Shown: positions 48,571 to 54,835 of the stretch, piece after piece
Position numbering within the stretch: position 1 is the stretch's first letter
How the letters are laid out: each line of letters opens with the position of its first letter
Assembly (NCBI GenBank): GCA_004298675.1
Contig: SCRI01000058.1
Span: 1-64,000, forward strand
Length of the DNA: 64,000 bases
Direction: 5' to 3'
Source of the DNA: a bacterium
GTDB lineage: Bacteria > Vulcanimicrobiota > Vulcanimicrobiia > Vulcanimicrobiales > SCRA01
Notes under the pieces: model-generated
The model's database searches: none
What the model was told of the DNA's origin: nothing
What the model saw: only the letters and a program-made list of their open reading frames with translations
Program-made: the position numbers and the translations under genes

Positions 48571-48589
48571 CGTCCATATGACGGACGAT
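48569..48589. promoter_or_regulatory. Operator site 3: ATCGTCC-N7-GGACGAT, containing the start codon
   Basis: A perfect 7-base inverted repeat with a 7-base spacer. The spacer contains the ATG of the DUF4143 gene (48578-48580). Its centre is 22 bases, about two helix turns, from that of site 2. Confidence 0.6.
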
Positions 48590-49840
48590 CTCCAAACCCA
48601 CGTTCCGAGACGACTCGAAGCCCTCGTGCACGAAGGGCTGCGGGCCAGCCGCGTAGTTGCCGTCTGCGGCGCGCGGCAAGTCGGAAAATCGTCCCTCGCT
48701 AGACACTTCGCGAATGAGAGCCGGCCGTATGTGACCCTCGACGACCTCGGGGTGCTCGACCGCGCCACGCGCGACCCGCAAGGCCTTATTGCAGGCTTAC
48801 CGACGCACGCCATCCTCGACGAGGTCCAGAGGGCCCCGAAGCTCCTCCTGGCGATCAAGTCTATCGTCGACCAGCACGAGACGAGAGGCCGGTTTTTACT
48901 CACCGGGTCCTCGAATCTCCTCACCCTTCCGAGCATTTCGGAGTCCCTCGCCGGGCGCATGTTCGTCTACGAGCTCTATCCGCTTGCTGAGGCCGAGATC
49001 GCTCGCACCGACGGTAATATGATCGACGCACTCTTCGATTCGAGAACGCGCTGGCCAAACCGCCCGTTCGATCGCCGTGACTTCGTCGCGCGCCTCGTTC
49101 GAGGCGGGTATCCAGAGGCAGTCCGCGCGGAGAACGACCGCGTTCGTGCAATGTGGTTCGAGAGCTACTTGTTGACGATGTTGCAGCGTGACATTCGCGA
49201 GCTCGCGCGAATCGAAGACACCGTCGCTATGGGGCGCCTCTTGGGTACGATTGCGATGCGTTCCGGCCGCATCCTCAATGCCACGAATCTGGCCTCCGAA
49301 GCGGAAATCACCAAGACGACGCTTCTTCGCTATCTAGCGCTCTTAGAGCAGACCTACCTCGTGTACCGCGTTAGCGCGTGGGCGGGGGACCCTGCGCGGC
49401 GCCTGAGTAAGGCACCGAAAATCCTCGCGAACGACACTGGACTCGCCGCACATCAGTTAGGGGCTGGCGCCACGCGACTTCTCGAAGATCCAAATCTCCT
49501 CGGCGGGCTGACGGAAACTTTCGTGGGGAACGAACTACGCAAGCATGCGTCTTGGAGCGACCTGCGGCCCACGCTCTTGCACTATCGTTCGCATGAGGGT
49601 GCTGAGGTCGACTTCATCCTGGAAACCCGCTCGGGGGAGCGTGTCGCCGTCGAAGTAAAGGCAGCAGGTACAGTTGGCGGCAGCGACTTCCGTGGGTTGC
49701 TGAAACTTGCCGACGATCCAAAGATGCGCGTTCGCCGAGGCGTGCTCTTCTACGCGGGCTCAACGGTCATTCCCGCGCGGGAGAACGTTCACGCGGTTCC
49801 GATCTCACTCTTTTGGACGAGCCTCGCCCATCTTCGCTAG
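48578..49840 (+). CDS. AAA ATPase with DUF4143 and PD-(D/E)xK-like C-terminus
   Basis: 420 residues. The AAA_14 domain has Walker A GARQVGKSSLAR, Walker B AILDEVQRAPKLL and the sensor FLLTGSSNLL. DUF4143 follows (YLLTMLQRDIRELARIEDT, LRYLALLEQTYLVYRVSAW, KILANDTGLAAHQLGA) and the C-terminal EVDFILETRSGERVAVEVKA has the D...ExK pattern of a restriction-endonuclease-like fold. Such ATPases are common in genomic islands; their function is not settled. Codons here are visibly less GC-biased than in ftsK before it, a sign of transfer. The start codon is embedded in an operator, which suggests tight autoregulation. Confidence 0.9.
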   Translation: MTDDLQTHVPRRLEALVHEGLRASRVVAVCGARQVGKSSLARHFANESRPYVTLDDLGVLDRATRDPQGLIAGLPTHAILDEVQRAPKLLLAIKSIVDQHETRGRFLLTGSSNLLTLPSISESLAGRMFVYELYPLAEAEIARTDGNMIDALFDSRTRWPNRPFDRRDFVARLVRGGYPEAVRAENDRVRAMWFESYLLTMLQRDIRELARIEDTVAMGRLLGTIAMRSGRILNATNLASEAEITKTTLLRYLALLEQTYLVYRVSAWAGDPARRLSKAPKILANDTGLAAHQLGAGATRLLEDPNLLGGLTETFVGNELRKHASWSDLRPTLLHYRSHEGAEVDFILETRSGERVAVEVKAAGTVGGSDFRGLLKLADDPKMRVRRGVLFYAGSTVIPARENVHAVPISLFWTSLAHLR

Positions 49841-49995
49841 ATCGAGGCCGTTGGTACGCTCGCAAGGGGCCGCCCGCGCAAGCGTCTCTACATATCAAAA
49901 GAGTGCACAGGAGCCGTAGTGGCCTGCGGAGAGGGGGGCGCGTGGGGCAGTTAGTTTTTCCGGGCGGATGACAGCCGCGGGCGACAGTTCCCGAG

Positions 49996-50046
49996 CGGGC
50001 TCTTTTCCAAGCGAGTGCTCGCTTGCATAGTGCGTCTTGGAGCCCG
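49996..50046. repeat. Nested inverted repeat (cruciform-like)
   Basis: Outer arms CGGGCTC (49996-50002) and GAGCCCG (50040-50046) enclose a tight inner stem CAAGCGAG-TG-CTCGCTTG (50008-50025). It could be a terminator-like barrier for the upstream transcript or a recognition structure. Confidence 0.5.
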
Positions 50047-50078
50047 AGCTGTTCCGATACACCGGTCGTAAAAAGGAC

Positions 50079-50107
50079 TTGACGTCCTTAGGACCTCTTG
50101 CTAGAGT
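50079..50107 (+). promoter_or_regulatory. Sigma-70-type promoter of the AIPR-like gene, with overlapping dyad
   Basis: TTGACG (50079-50084), a 17-base spacer and TAGAGT (50102-50107). The dyad AAGGAC-N5-GTCCTT (50073-50089) surrounds the -35, and AGGAC repeats directly after it, so a repressor could block the -35. Confidence 0.6.
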
Positions 50108-50186
50108 CTCAGGTAATCCCCCGGATGCATCGCCATCGAGGGGGCAGTTGAAACCGCCGCATCGCCGGCGAGAAAGAACACTAACA

Positions 50187-51443
50187 ATGGAACCGACTTC
50201 TGTAACGCTTCCATTTCTGTCAGCACGTAAGCTGCATGACCCCTTTAACAAGGAGGTCATTACTTACGAGTTTCGCGTCGATACGCGCGAAATTCCTGAT
50301 CTTCCGATTGATGCAAATGCCCGGCCGTCTGACGCCGCGAAAAAGCGGCGCGTCTATAAATCCGTCCGCAACGCAGCCCTCGATGGTAAGCTTGAGCTCG
50401 ACGAAGACTGCACGCCCGGCCTCTTCGGCTACAAACACTTGGGCGTCAATGTCATCGCGGATTCGGTGGAAGAGTTTGATAACCGTACCGCGGTCCTGCA
50501 CTTTAAGAACGGCCAGGGCGTCATGAACGGTGGTCACGGTTTGGCGATCCTTAGAGAATTACAAGAGAGCCCGGGCGTTCAAGAGATGCCGCCAAACTTC
50601 ATTAAAATTTCGGTCGTCGTTGGCTTGAACGACGCCGTCATTCCGGAGGTTGCCGGCGCCAATAACACATCGGTTCAGGTCAAGGCGTCGTCGTTACTCG
50701 AACTCAAAGGCGCTTTTAAGCCGTTGAAAGACGCGCTTGCCCATACCCGCATGGCGAAGGCGGTCCAGTGGCGAGAAGGCGAGGAAGGTATAAAGGTCGA
50801 GGACATTGTCGCAGTGATGACGTGCTTCCGCAGCGACGTGTACCCGGTAGCGGATCGACGTCGAACCCCGCACAATGCCTACGCATACAAGACCGGTTTG
50901 ATCGATGAGTTTCGTAAGGATCTGGAAGGCTATCACGCCCTCGCCCCACGTCTCCCTGAAATCCTTGAGTTTCAAGACTTCATCCGCGTTCAGCCGAAAA
51001 AAGTCTATAACGACGCTGGCGGGCGCTTTGGCGGGCTCAAGTTCGTTGACTCGATCTTCACCGATGCAAACGGTGAGAAGCGCAAGGCTTCGTTGCTTCC
51101 CTTCGAGATGCCGTTTACCGGCGAGAAAGCCAACCATCGACTGAACGTCGCTGCGGTATACCCGATTCTCGCAGCGTTCCGCATTCTCATTCAGAGAAAG
51201 ATCGATCCTGAAAAGGGCGATTCATTCGAATGGGTCATGCCGTTCGACGAAATCAAGCGGCTCTGGGAAGAAATCTCCGTCGAAGTGATGGATACGACAA
51301 AGAACGCTTGCCAAGAGGCTAACTACGTTCTCAACGCACTTGGAAAGTCCAGACCACACTGGGAAAACGTTCAGCGTATCGTTGAACTTGCCGTGATGCG
51401 CCGCGAACTCGATGCCACGCGGGCAGCTATCGGGCGCAAATAG
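50187..51443 (+). CDS. AIPR-like protein (abortive infection phage resistance family)
   Basis: 418 residues. The pattern of AIPR proteins is recognisable: FGYKHLGVNVIADSV (AIPR: FxYxNxGIxIIA), GQGVMNGGHGLAILREL (AIPR: VNGxQTxxAL), an IKISVVVGLNDAVIPEVAGANNTSVQVKASSLLELKGAF block (AIPR: I..A.NxQ..V...sL), then a helical C-terminal half. The usual NGxQT is NGGH here, which also recalls the DGQHR motif of DndB/DGQHR proteins. AIPR members are tied to phage defence and restriction islands, but the mechanism is not known. It has its own promoter and an intrinsic terminator. Codon use is less GC-biased than the neighbouring core genes. Confidence 0.65.
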   Translation: MEPTSVTLPFLSARKLHDPFNKEVITYEFRVDTREIPDLPIDANARPSDAAKKRRVYKSVRNAALDGKLELDEDCTPGLFGYKHLGVNVIADSVEEFDNRTAVLHFKNGQGVMNGGHGLAILRELQESPGVQEMPPNFIKISVVVGLNDAVIPEVAGANNTSVQVKASSLLELKGAFKPLKDALAHTRMAKAVQWREGEEGIKVEDIVAVMTCFRSDVYPVADRRRTPHNAYAYKTGLIDEFRKDLEGYHALAPRLPEILEFQDFIRVQPKKVYNDAGGRFGGLKFVDSIFTDANGEKRKASLLPFEMPFTGEKANHRLNVAAVYPILAAFRILIQRKIDPEKGDSFEWVMPFDEIKRLWEEISVEVMDTTKNACQEANYVLNALGKSRPHWENVQRIVELAVMRRELDATRAAIGRK

Positions 51444-51497: not shown

Positions 51498-51639
51498 GCC
51501 ATGAATCGATGAAGCGGCTCGTTGCCGTGGCGCCAGGCTTGCAATGCCGGTCGCGGCGCGCGAGAATCTCTTGGTGGCGCGCTTGGGGTTCTCCAGGAAC
51601 GGGCGAAAGAGGGGTCGATCGGGCAGGGCGGGAGCGGCG

Positions 51640-53757
51640 GTGGCGGGCAGCGAATCCCGGCGGGTCAACCTGGAGGAACACGTGACGGCTTTCCTTGACC
51701 CCGCGCTGCGCGCGATCGAAGCCAAGCTCGACGAAGGTATCCCGCTCTCGCTCGAAGACGGACTGACGCTCTTCAAGACGCCGGACCTGCACGGGCTCGG
51801 GCGCCTGGCCACGAACGAGAAACGCAAGAAGAGCGGACAGCGCGTCTTTTACGTCCACAACCGCTACATGAACACGACCAATGTCTGCTATGCGGGCTGC
51901 AAGTTCTGCTCGTTCGCGGTGGGCGAACGCAGCGAACACAAGGTCCGTATGACCAAGGAGCAGATTCTGGCGAAGGCCGTCGAGACCGGCGTGAACTTCA
52001 ACCAGATCCACATCGTGGGCGGTCACGACCCCAAGCAGCTGTCACTGGACTTCTGGGTTCCGCTGATCCAGGAGTTCAAGCAGCGTCTGCCCCACGCTCA
52101 GCTCTCGTTCTTCACCGCTGCCGAGATCGAGTACATGGCCCAGCGCCATCGCCTTTCGCGCGAAGAGACGGTGAAGACGCTGGCCCAGGCCGGGCTCGAC
52201 AACGTCAACGGCGGCGGTGCGGAGGTCTTCAGCCAACGCTTCCGTGAGATCGTCTGTCCGGGCAAGATCGATGCCGCGGGCTGGCTCGAGGTGCACGAGC
52301 ATCTCCATCGCCACGGCGTCTCCTCGAACGCGACGATGCTTTACGGGACCATCGAGACGCTGGCGGAGCGCGTCGAGCACTTGATTGCGCTGCGCGAGTC
52401 GCAGCAACGCTCCCCGGGTTACAACGCCTTCATCCCGTTGGCGTTCCATCCCGACGGCAACGAATTGGACTACTGCGGCTGGACGACCGGCGTGCAGGAT
52501 CTGCGCATGTTCGCCGTGGCGCGCTTGATGCTCAACAACTTCGATCATATCAAGGCCTACTGGATGATCCAGGGGCTGAAGGTGTGCCAATTGGCGCTGC
52601 ACTTCGGCGCCGACGACATGGACGGCACCCACGGTGAGTCCGACGAGGAGCGCATCTACCACTCCGCCGGCACGCAGTCGGGGCAGTACGTCGACGCCAA
52701 GGTCTTCCGTACATTGATCGAGGAGGCCGGCTACGAGCCGGTCCGCCGCAACTCGACCTACGACGAATTCCCGATCGGCTGGGAGCCGCCCAAGGAGTAC
52801 GCGGTGGACACCAAAGGGCGGCGTATCGAGAGTGAGCCGGCGCCGCAGTGGTGGGGCAACGGCACCTACCCGGTGGGCAAGGCGCTGGAGGCGGCGCGCG
52901 CCGCGCTGGCGCAGAAGCCGCGCGCGCTGCGCAGCGGGCGCATCTCGTACACCAACGACCTGCCCGTATACACCGCCTTCGACCGCGGCGACGTGGTCTA
53001 TCCCGGACGCTTGGAGTCCGCCGTCCCCGCGGATCTCAATCGCAAGCTGCTCGCCGGTGAGCTGGAGCTTTCGCCGGTGAGTTCGTTCTTCTATGCGCAG
53101 CACCACGAGGAGCTGGTGTTGCTGCCGGACATCTGCATCGGCGCGCGCACGCAGGTGCTCTCGGTGGTGCTGCTCTCCGACGTTCCGCCGGCGCTCTTGA
53201 GCGGGCGTGCGGTGCACGTCACCACGGAGAGCGCCTCCGGACGGGCATTGTTGGAGCTGCTGCTGCGCCGCCGCTACGGCGTGGAGCCCGTCTTCGTCGA
53301 GCACGGCGATCCGCTGAGCGCGTTCCTCAACGCAGAGGGGCCGGCGCTGGTCATCGGTGACCGCGCCATCGACGCGCGCGAGCAGGCGCGTGCATCCGAC
53401 GTCTACGACCTGGGCACGCTCTGGAACGAGTGGACAGGCGAGGAGATGGTGTACGCCGTCTGGGCCGCCAGCCGCGCCGCGGTGGAGAGCCGGCGCAACG
53501 ACGTCGCCGCCTGCGTCGACGCGTTGCGCAAATCGCTAGCGTGGGGGCTGACGCACAAGGACGACGTCATCGCTGCCGCCGAGAGGCAGAAGCCGCGCGG
53601 TCCAGGCTTCTATCAAGTCTACTACGACACGCTCGTGTTCAACTTTGACGAGCGCGCGCAGCGCGGGCTGGCGCGCTTCTACGACGAATTGGGTGCGGCG
53701 GGAATGCTGGATGCCGTGCCCTTCGTCAAGCCGGAGGATCTCCGTGTCACTCGCTAG
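51640..53757 (+). CDS. mqnE/mqnA: Fused MqnE-MqnA: aminofutalosine synthase joined to chorismate dehydratase
   Basis: A single 705-residue frame. Residues about 10-400 are MqnE: radical-SAM motif NVCYAGCKFC (C83, C87, C90), NQIHIVGGHDPKQ, NGGGAEVFS, NAFIPLAFHPDGNEL. Residues about 428-700 are MqnA, a periplasmic-binding-protein-like fold: LRSGRISYTNDLPVYTAFDRG, GELELSPVSSFFYAQHHEELVLLPDICIGA, HVTTESASGRALLELLL, WNEWTGEEMVYAVWA. MqnA makes 3-[(1-carboxyvinyl)oxy]benzoate from chorismate, and MqnE adds it to SAM to form aminofutalosine, so the fusion joins consecutive steps of menaquinone synthesis. I chose GTG 51640 (GGAG five bases upstream); ATG 51544 would add a basic, non-conserved 32 residues. 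Confidence 0.9.
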   Translation: MAGSESRRVNLEEHVTAFLDPALRAIEAKLDEGIPLSLEDGLTLFKTPDLHGLGRLATNEKRKKSGQRVFYVHNRYMNTTNVCYAGCKFCSFAVGERSEHKVRMTKEQILAKAVETGVNFNQIHIVGGHDPKQLSLDFWVPLIQEFKQRLPHAQLSFFTAAEIEYMAQRHRLSREETVKTLAQAGLDNVNGGGAEVFSQRFREIVCPGKIDAAGWLEVHEHLHRHGVSSNATMLYGTIETLAERVEHLIALRESQQRSPGYNAFIPLAFHPDGNELDYCGWTTGVQDLRMFAVARLMLNNFDHIKAYWMIQGLKVCQLALHFGADDMDGTHGESDEERIYHSAGTQSGQYVDAKVFRTLIEEAGYEPVRRNSTYDEFPIGWEPPKEYAVDTKGRRIESEPAPQWWGNGTYPVGKALEAARAALAQKPRALRSGRISYTNDLPVYTAFDRGDVVYPGRLESAVPADLNRKLLAGELELSPVSSFFYAQHHEELVLLPDICIGARTQVLSVVLLSDVPPALLSGRAVHVTTESASGRALLELLLRRRYGVEPVFVEHGDPLSAFLNAEGPALVIGDRAIDAREQARASDVYDLGTLWNEWTGEEMVYAVWAASRAAVESRRNDVAACVDALRKSLAWGLTHKDDVIAAAERQKPRGPGFYQVYYDTLVFNFDERAQRGLARFYDELGAAGMLDAVPFVKPEDLRVTR

Positions 53758-54835
53758 TCTACTCGATCGGGCCGCCACCGGCGGCCGCCTCACCTACGAC
53801 GAGGGCGTGCGCCTCTATCTGGAGGCTCCGCTCAACGAGCTGGGAGCCGCGGCGCACTACCGGCGCTTGCAGATGCACCCCGGCAGCGACGTCACGTACG
53901 TCATCGACACCACCATCAACTACACCAACATCTGCAACGTCCACTGCACCTTCTGCGCCTTCTTCCGCCACGAGGGTTCGACGGAAGGCTACACGATGTC
54001 GCACGACGAGGTGCTGGAGCACGTGCGCTTCGCGGCCGATCAGGGCGCGACGCAGATCATGATCCAAGGTGGCGTCAACCCCGCGATCAGGCTGGAGTGG
54101 TTCACCGAGCTCTTTCGCAAAGTGTCCGCGCAGTTCCCCAGCGTCGACATCCACTCGCTCTCCGTCTCCGAGATCCTGGGCCTGGCCAAAGTGGAGGAGA
54201 AGAGCGTCGAAGAGATCCTGATCGCGCTCAAGGAGTCGGGGATGAAATCGCTGCCCGGCGCCGGTGCCGAGATCTTGGTCGACCGCGTGCGCAAACGCAT
54301 CAGCGCGCGCAAGGTGGGCCCGGAGGGTTGGGTCGACGTGATGCGCAAGGCGCAGCGTCTGGGGATGCCAACGACGGCGACGATGATGTTCGGCAGCGTG
54401 GAGACCAAGGAGGAACGCATTCAGCACCTGGAGGTCATCCGCGCGTTGCAGGACGAGAATCCGGGCGGGTTCACGGCCTTCATCCCCTGGTATTACGTGC
54501 CGTACAACACGTATCTGCGGGGCGAGGAGGCCAGCGGCTACGAGTACCTGCGCGTGCTTGCGATCTCGCGTCTCTACCTCGACAATCTCGCACACCTGCA
54601 GGCGTCCTGGCTGACACCTGGGCTGAAGATGGGGCAGATCGCCCTGTTCTACGGCTGCGACGACATGGGCGGCACGATTCTGGAAGAGCAGGTCGTGAAG
54701 CTGGCGGGGGCCACGAATGAGGCCAAGCGCGCCGATCTCGAGCGGGCCATCCGCGATGCCGGCTTCAACCCGGTCATCCGCGACACGTATTGGAACGTGC
54801 GCAACGACGTAGCGCTGGCAACCGCCACGGCGTAG
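53744..54835 (+). CDS. mqnC: Cyclic dehypoxanthinyl futalosine synthase
   Basis: A 363-residue radical-SAM enzyme that cyclises dehypoxanthine futalosine in the menaquinone pathway. C64-x3-C68-x2-C71 (CNVHCTFC), FFRHEGSTEGYTMS, QIMIQGGVNP, SLPGAGAEILVDRVR and FIPWYYVPYNT are conserved. GTG 53744 lies 14 bases inside the end of the fused gene and follows GGAGG by 7 bases, so the two are coupled. The nucleosidase (MqnB or MTAN) and MqnD are not in this window. Confidence 0.93.
   Translation: MSLASLLDRAATGGRLTYDEGVRLYLEAPLNELGAAAHYRRLQMHPGSDVTYVIDTTINYTNICNVHCTFCAFFRHEGSTEGYTMSHDEVLEHVRFAADQGATQIMIQGGVNPAIRLEWFTELFRKVSAQFPSVDIHSLSVSEILGLAKVEEKSVEEILIALKESGMKSLPGAGAEILVDRVRKRISARKVGPEGWVDVMRKAQRLGMPTTATMMFGSVETKEERIQHLEVIRALQDENPGGFTAFIPWYYVPYNTYLRGEEASGYEYLRVLAISRLYLDNLAHLQASWLTPGLKMGQIALFYGCDDMGGTILEEQVVKLAGATNEAKRADLERAIRDAGFNPVIRDTYWNVRNDVALATATA

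Follow-up and report, generated by a model that had tools for sequence, protein, structure and literature searches.

The locus raises the question of whether two consecutive enzymes of menaquinone biosynthesis, MqnE and MqnA, are encoded by a single gene in this bacterium and, if so, how the joined gene arose and what is gained by it. The window analysed is a 64,000-nucleotide stretch of DNA. A preliminary description placed in it, at positions 51640–53757, one uninterrupted open reading frame holding a full MqnE followed by a full MqnA. The ORF list, the NCBIfam and Pfam models and matches to PDB structures all bear this out. The open frame extends from 51544 to 53757 on the forward strand, encodes 737 amino acids counted from the first ATG, and has no internal stop codons. 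The start at 51640, on the other hand, is probably 14 codons too early. Translation likely begins at GTG 51682, which gives a 691-amino-acid product (51682–53757), because strong similarity to two sibling species begins near this codon and its Shine-Dalgarno sequence and the DNA upstream diverges. The Shine-Dalgarno sequence, GGAGG at 51672–51676, lies 5 nt before the GTG. Both are kept in the two sibling species, so that the GGAGG is conserved in three species, but the DNA further 5′ is not.

The C-terminal half (52930–53688) carries the chorismate dehydratase domain. The Pfam model VitK2_biosynth (PF02621) matches residues 463–715 of the 737-amino-acid reading with 198.9 bits against a cut-off of 26. 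Streptomyces MqnA structures 7ahr and 2nxo match this half over most of their length in a PDB sequence search. The E values for MqnA structures are 1e-31 to 1e-14, compared with 2e-7 for the MqnD structure 2czl, and the half is thus closer to MqnA. Foldseek also returns MqnA (7an9 and 2nxo). The possibility, raised in advance, that this half might fail to match MqnA is therefore set aside.

The N-terminal half (51715–52767) is matched by the MqnE model TIGR03700 at residues 58–408 of the 737-amino-acid reading and at model positions 1–350 of 351. The score of 380.6 bits falls 54 bits short of the cut-off of 434.55, yet it is the highest of all models. Three unfused MqnE proteins of the same phylum score 400–421 bits against TIGR03700 and also miss the cut-off, by 13–35 bits; the shortfall accordingly looks like divergence of the phylum. 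Radical_SAM (PF04055) and CofH_C (PF19288) domains are found at residues 109–280 and 291–408 of the same reading. The radical SAM motif CX3CX2C is present as CYAGCKFC, with Cys69, Cys73 and Cys76 encoded from 51886. Evidence beyond the TIGR03700 score favours assignment of this half as MqnE. A score below the equivalog cut-off might be expected if the half were some other CofH/MqnC-like radical SAM enzyme, but this is scarcely credible. The MqnE model leads all other models by 80 bits, and the nearest solved structure is MqnE both by sequence (Pedobacter heparinus 6xi9, matched over most of its length) and by fold (6xig, the top Foldseek match). In addition, a distinct MqnC passes its own cut-off, and the gene context also fits MqnE.

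Between the two domains is a linker of 43 amino acids, the YAVDTKGRRIESEPAPQWWGNGTYPVGKALEAARAALAQKPRA region (52798–52926). The fusion is present in four of the four available genomes of this Eremiobacterota/Vulcanimicrobiota family, which represent one genus. The most distant member shows 84% identity across the aligned C-terminal 493 residues. The linker is equal in length in all four and 79–88% identical to that of the present genome. Its dN/dS values, mostly 0.10–0.26, are near those of both flanking domains. Together these properties indicate that the junction is translated and constrained. No homologue of the linker was found in unfused relatives. In trees of each half, the fused sequences form one clade nested in the phylum, with support of 100 and 99–100, and the fusion looks like a single event that has been vertically inherited. 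As read from the four family genomes, with a single frame and a linker under coding selection, the gene fusion is genuine.

Two other accounts of the junction have to be weighed. An assembly or sequencing error could conceal a stop or start between two ordinary genes. The host assembly is a draft of 87 contigs, and in some relatives a single stop lies between the mqnE and mqnA frames. However, the missed stop that the preliminary description allowed for is excluded by the three sibling genomes, draft metagenome bins, two of them (G002 and G003) from a single sampling project. These share the same open junction and a linker of the same length, with substitutions under purifying selection. Furthermore, mqnA's own start codon is gone: the linker contains no ATG, and neither of the in-frame GTG codons in it, two in number, is kept as GTG across the siblings. 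Such an error is extremely improbable. The two GTGs, at 52804 and 52873 in the present genome, also bear on whether a separate MqnA is made alongside the fusion, by internal initiation or by proteolysis. This is highly unlikely, given that one sibling reads GTC at 52804 and two read GTT at 52873, that no evident Shine-Dalgarno sequence lies within 22 nt upstream of 52873, and that no internal start codon is conserved among the four family genomes.

The gene context is that of the futalosine pathway. The fusion is followed by mqnC (53744–54835, forward strand), encoding cyclic dehypoxanthinyl futalosine synthase (TIGR03699, 453.5 bits, above cut-off). The GTG start of mqnC overlaps the 3′ end of the fusion by 14 nt, and mqnC has its own GGAGG at 53733–53737. 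On the 5′ side (48578–51443) are genes unrelated to menaquinone, encoding an AAA_14/DUF4143 ATPase and an AIPR-domain, abortive-infection-like protein. Elsewhere in the host genome, on contig C49, is the futalosine hydrolase gene mqnB (TIGR03664, above cut-off). A second PF02621 protein is encoded directly after mqnB and is best read as MqnD. Thus mqnA, E, B, C and D are all present, and MenD, the men-route gene searched for, gave no match above cut-off in the host genome. The genome search found one mqnE and one mqnA; therefore, if the pathway runs, the fusion must supply both steps. Vulcanimicrobium, a cultivated member of the Eremiobacterota, produces menaquinone (PMC9758169).

At the other Eremiobacterota loci read, the fusion is absent. 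There mqnE and mqnA sit side by side as separate genes, with mqnC after them, and in about a dozen cases the first two share a frame but with a stop. Most of the class-level and phylum-level relatives read have the order mqnE-mqnA-mqnC, and it recurs in several other phyla. The two genes are separate in many other phyla as well, in keeping with the expectation that they are usually separate. At seven loci (L117, L119, L120, L121, L123, L124 and L097) the same-frame genes are parted by one stop, TAG, TAA or TGA, and these loci are therefore one mutation from fusion. One Eremiobacterota genome has ∼1.6 kb between mqnE and mqnA (L060:5131–6724), which are adjacent in its relatives.

The rarity of the fusion, left unjudged in the preliminary description, can be bounded. 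Outside the phylum, the survey covered 80 genomes of the Desulfosporosinus phylum that hold a relative of the query, ∼50 genomes scattered over the domain, and three further phyla in which 120, 180 and 55 genomes have an MqnA match. The result for the 180-genome phylum applies to the matches listed, about 30 of the 180 being outside the list. Among the matches listed, these ∼480 match-bearing genomes yielded no further MqnE-MqnA fusion. Open frames of 640–950 amino acids in the Desulfosporosinus, G470, G649 and G690 phyla and in some Eremiobacterota were considered as further fusions and rejected; on six-frame reading, E and A proved to be divided by an in-frame stop or to lie in differing frames, or the long frame was a domain-free upstream one of high GC content. 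A tblastn search of plasmids gave separate genes only, in the matches inspected. No published MqnE-MqnA fusion was found in the open-licence literature. Since the genome samples are not exhaustive and the 180-match phylum was seen among the matches listed, the data support calling the fusion rare, but not unique.

Two other arrangements were seen during the survey. Streptomyces plasmid NZ_CP120998.1 (L132:416–4083) has mqnE, a ferredoxin gene, mqnA and mqnC in a row, and this ferredoxin might supply the radical SAM enzyme with electrons. In another phylum, mqnA and mqnC share one stop-free open frame (L234:1800–4101, G1206 contig 18). This is possibly an MqnA-MqnC fusion, or merely a missing stop ahead of mqnC's own ATG; in the other genomes read from this group the two genes are in different frames or separated.

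It is very probable that the locus encodes a bifunctional protein, MqnE at the N-terminus and MqnA at the C-terminus, which was fused once in the family ancestor and whose likely benefit is 1:1 co-expression and proximity. Dehydration of chorismate to 3-[(1-carboxyvinyl)oxy]benzoate would fall to the MqnA half; the MqnE half would convert this product, with the SAM-derived adenosyl group, to aminofutalosine. MqnC, MqnB and MqnD would then finish the early route to menaquinone. Both activities, and the presence of a single polypeptide in the cell, we infer from the family assignments. The fusion would have arisen from the widespread, ancestral order mqnE-mqnA-mqnC when the mqnE stop and the mqnA start were lost and the 43-amino-acid linker was gained. 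The simplest account is that a stop was lost once, in the ancestor, within a tight operon. The domain order (E then A) mirrors gene order and not pathway order (A then E), which is what stop-codon loss would be expected to give.

What the fusion provides is a separate question. The joining of the second and first steps of the futalosine route stands, and is conserved in the family; the proposal that the joining channels the intermediate is not supported. AlphaFold predicts two confident domains and a low-confidence linker with one helix (pLDDT below 50 at 377–413), at a pTM of 0.57, and Foldseek finds the MqnE and MqnA folds separately in the model. With a linker predicted to be disordered and such a pTM, domain orientation is undefined and the model predicts neither a fixed interface nor a tunnel. 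Two enzymes that fold independently and are merely tethered to each other would fit it. The intermediate was also said to be unstable, but isolated 3-[(1-carboxyvinyl)oxy]benzoate has served as MqnE substrate in vitro, and instability is thus not a compelling driver. True channelling, in which the intermediate would cross a defined interface between the MqnA and MqnE sites, would suit consecutive pathway steps in one chain and a linker conserved within the family. It is nevertheless unlikely: no domain packing is defined in the model, the intermediate can be handled free, and the unfused state is so widespread that covalent linkage is not needed. Slightly less likely again is that the conserved linker, QWWGNG.YPVG.ALE.ARA, helps dock MqnA on the radical SAM domain for direct transfer of the intermediate. 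Fixed stoichiometry and proximity are more economical than channelling, and the benefit is likely obligatory 1:1 co-expression with closeness of the two enzymes, not a dedicated tunnel.

The known counterparts of each part are separate proteins. Pedobacter heparinus MqnE shares the radical SAM fold and CX3CX2C motif and aligns over nearly the whole enzyme, but is a stand-alone 419-residue chain, whereas here the chain runs on into MqnA. Streptomyces coelicolor MqnA (SCO4506; 2nxo, 7ahr), a near whole-length match in fold and sequence with a TM of about 0.9 of the target, also stands alone, whereas here MqnA is C-terminal to MqnE. The bifunctional FO synthase CofGH (FbiC) is a fusion of pathway enzymes that includes a radical SAM protein of the CofH/MqnE family. 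The likeness is by analogy of working only. CofGH has two radical SAM domains and serves F420; its second domain and its product differ. The mqnEAC operon named for Pelotomaculum and relatives (PMC4746308) has the same three genes, order and enzymes, but its genes are separate, and here the first two are one open reading frame with a linker.

The known biochemistry is unchanged by the fusion. It directly supports a functional linkage of MqnE and MqnA, and it is a natural single-polypeptide form of the first two steps of a pathway of antibiotic interest, a ready-made construct for the study of MqnA-MqnE coupling. Some genomes with the conserved mqnE-A-C order are a single stop codon short of the same state. 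In modest terms, the fusion in this soil bacterium is a lineage-specific joining of known menaquinone (vitamin K2) enzymes within a gene order that is otherwise unremarkable and is widely conserved.
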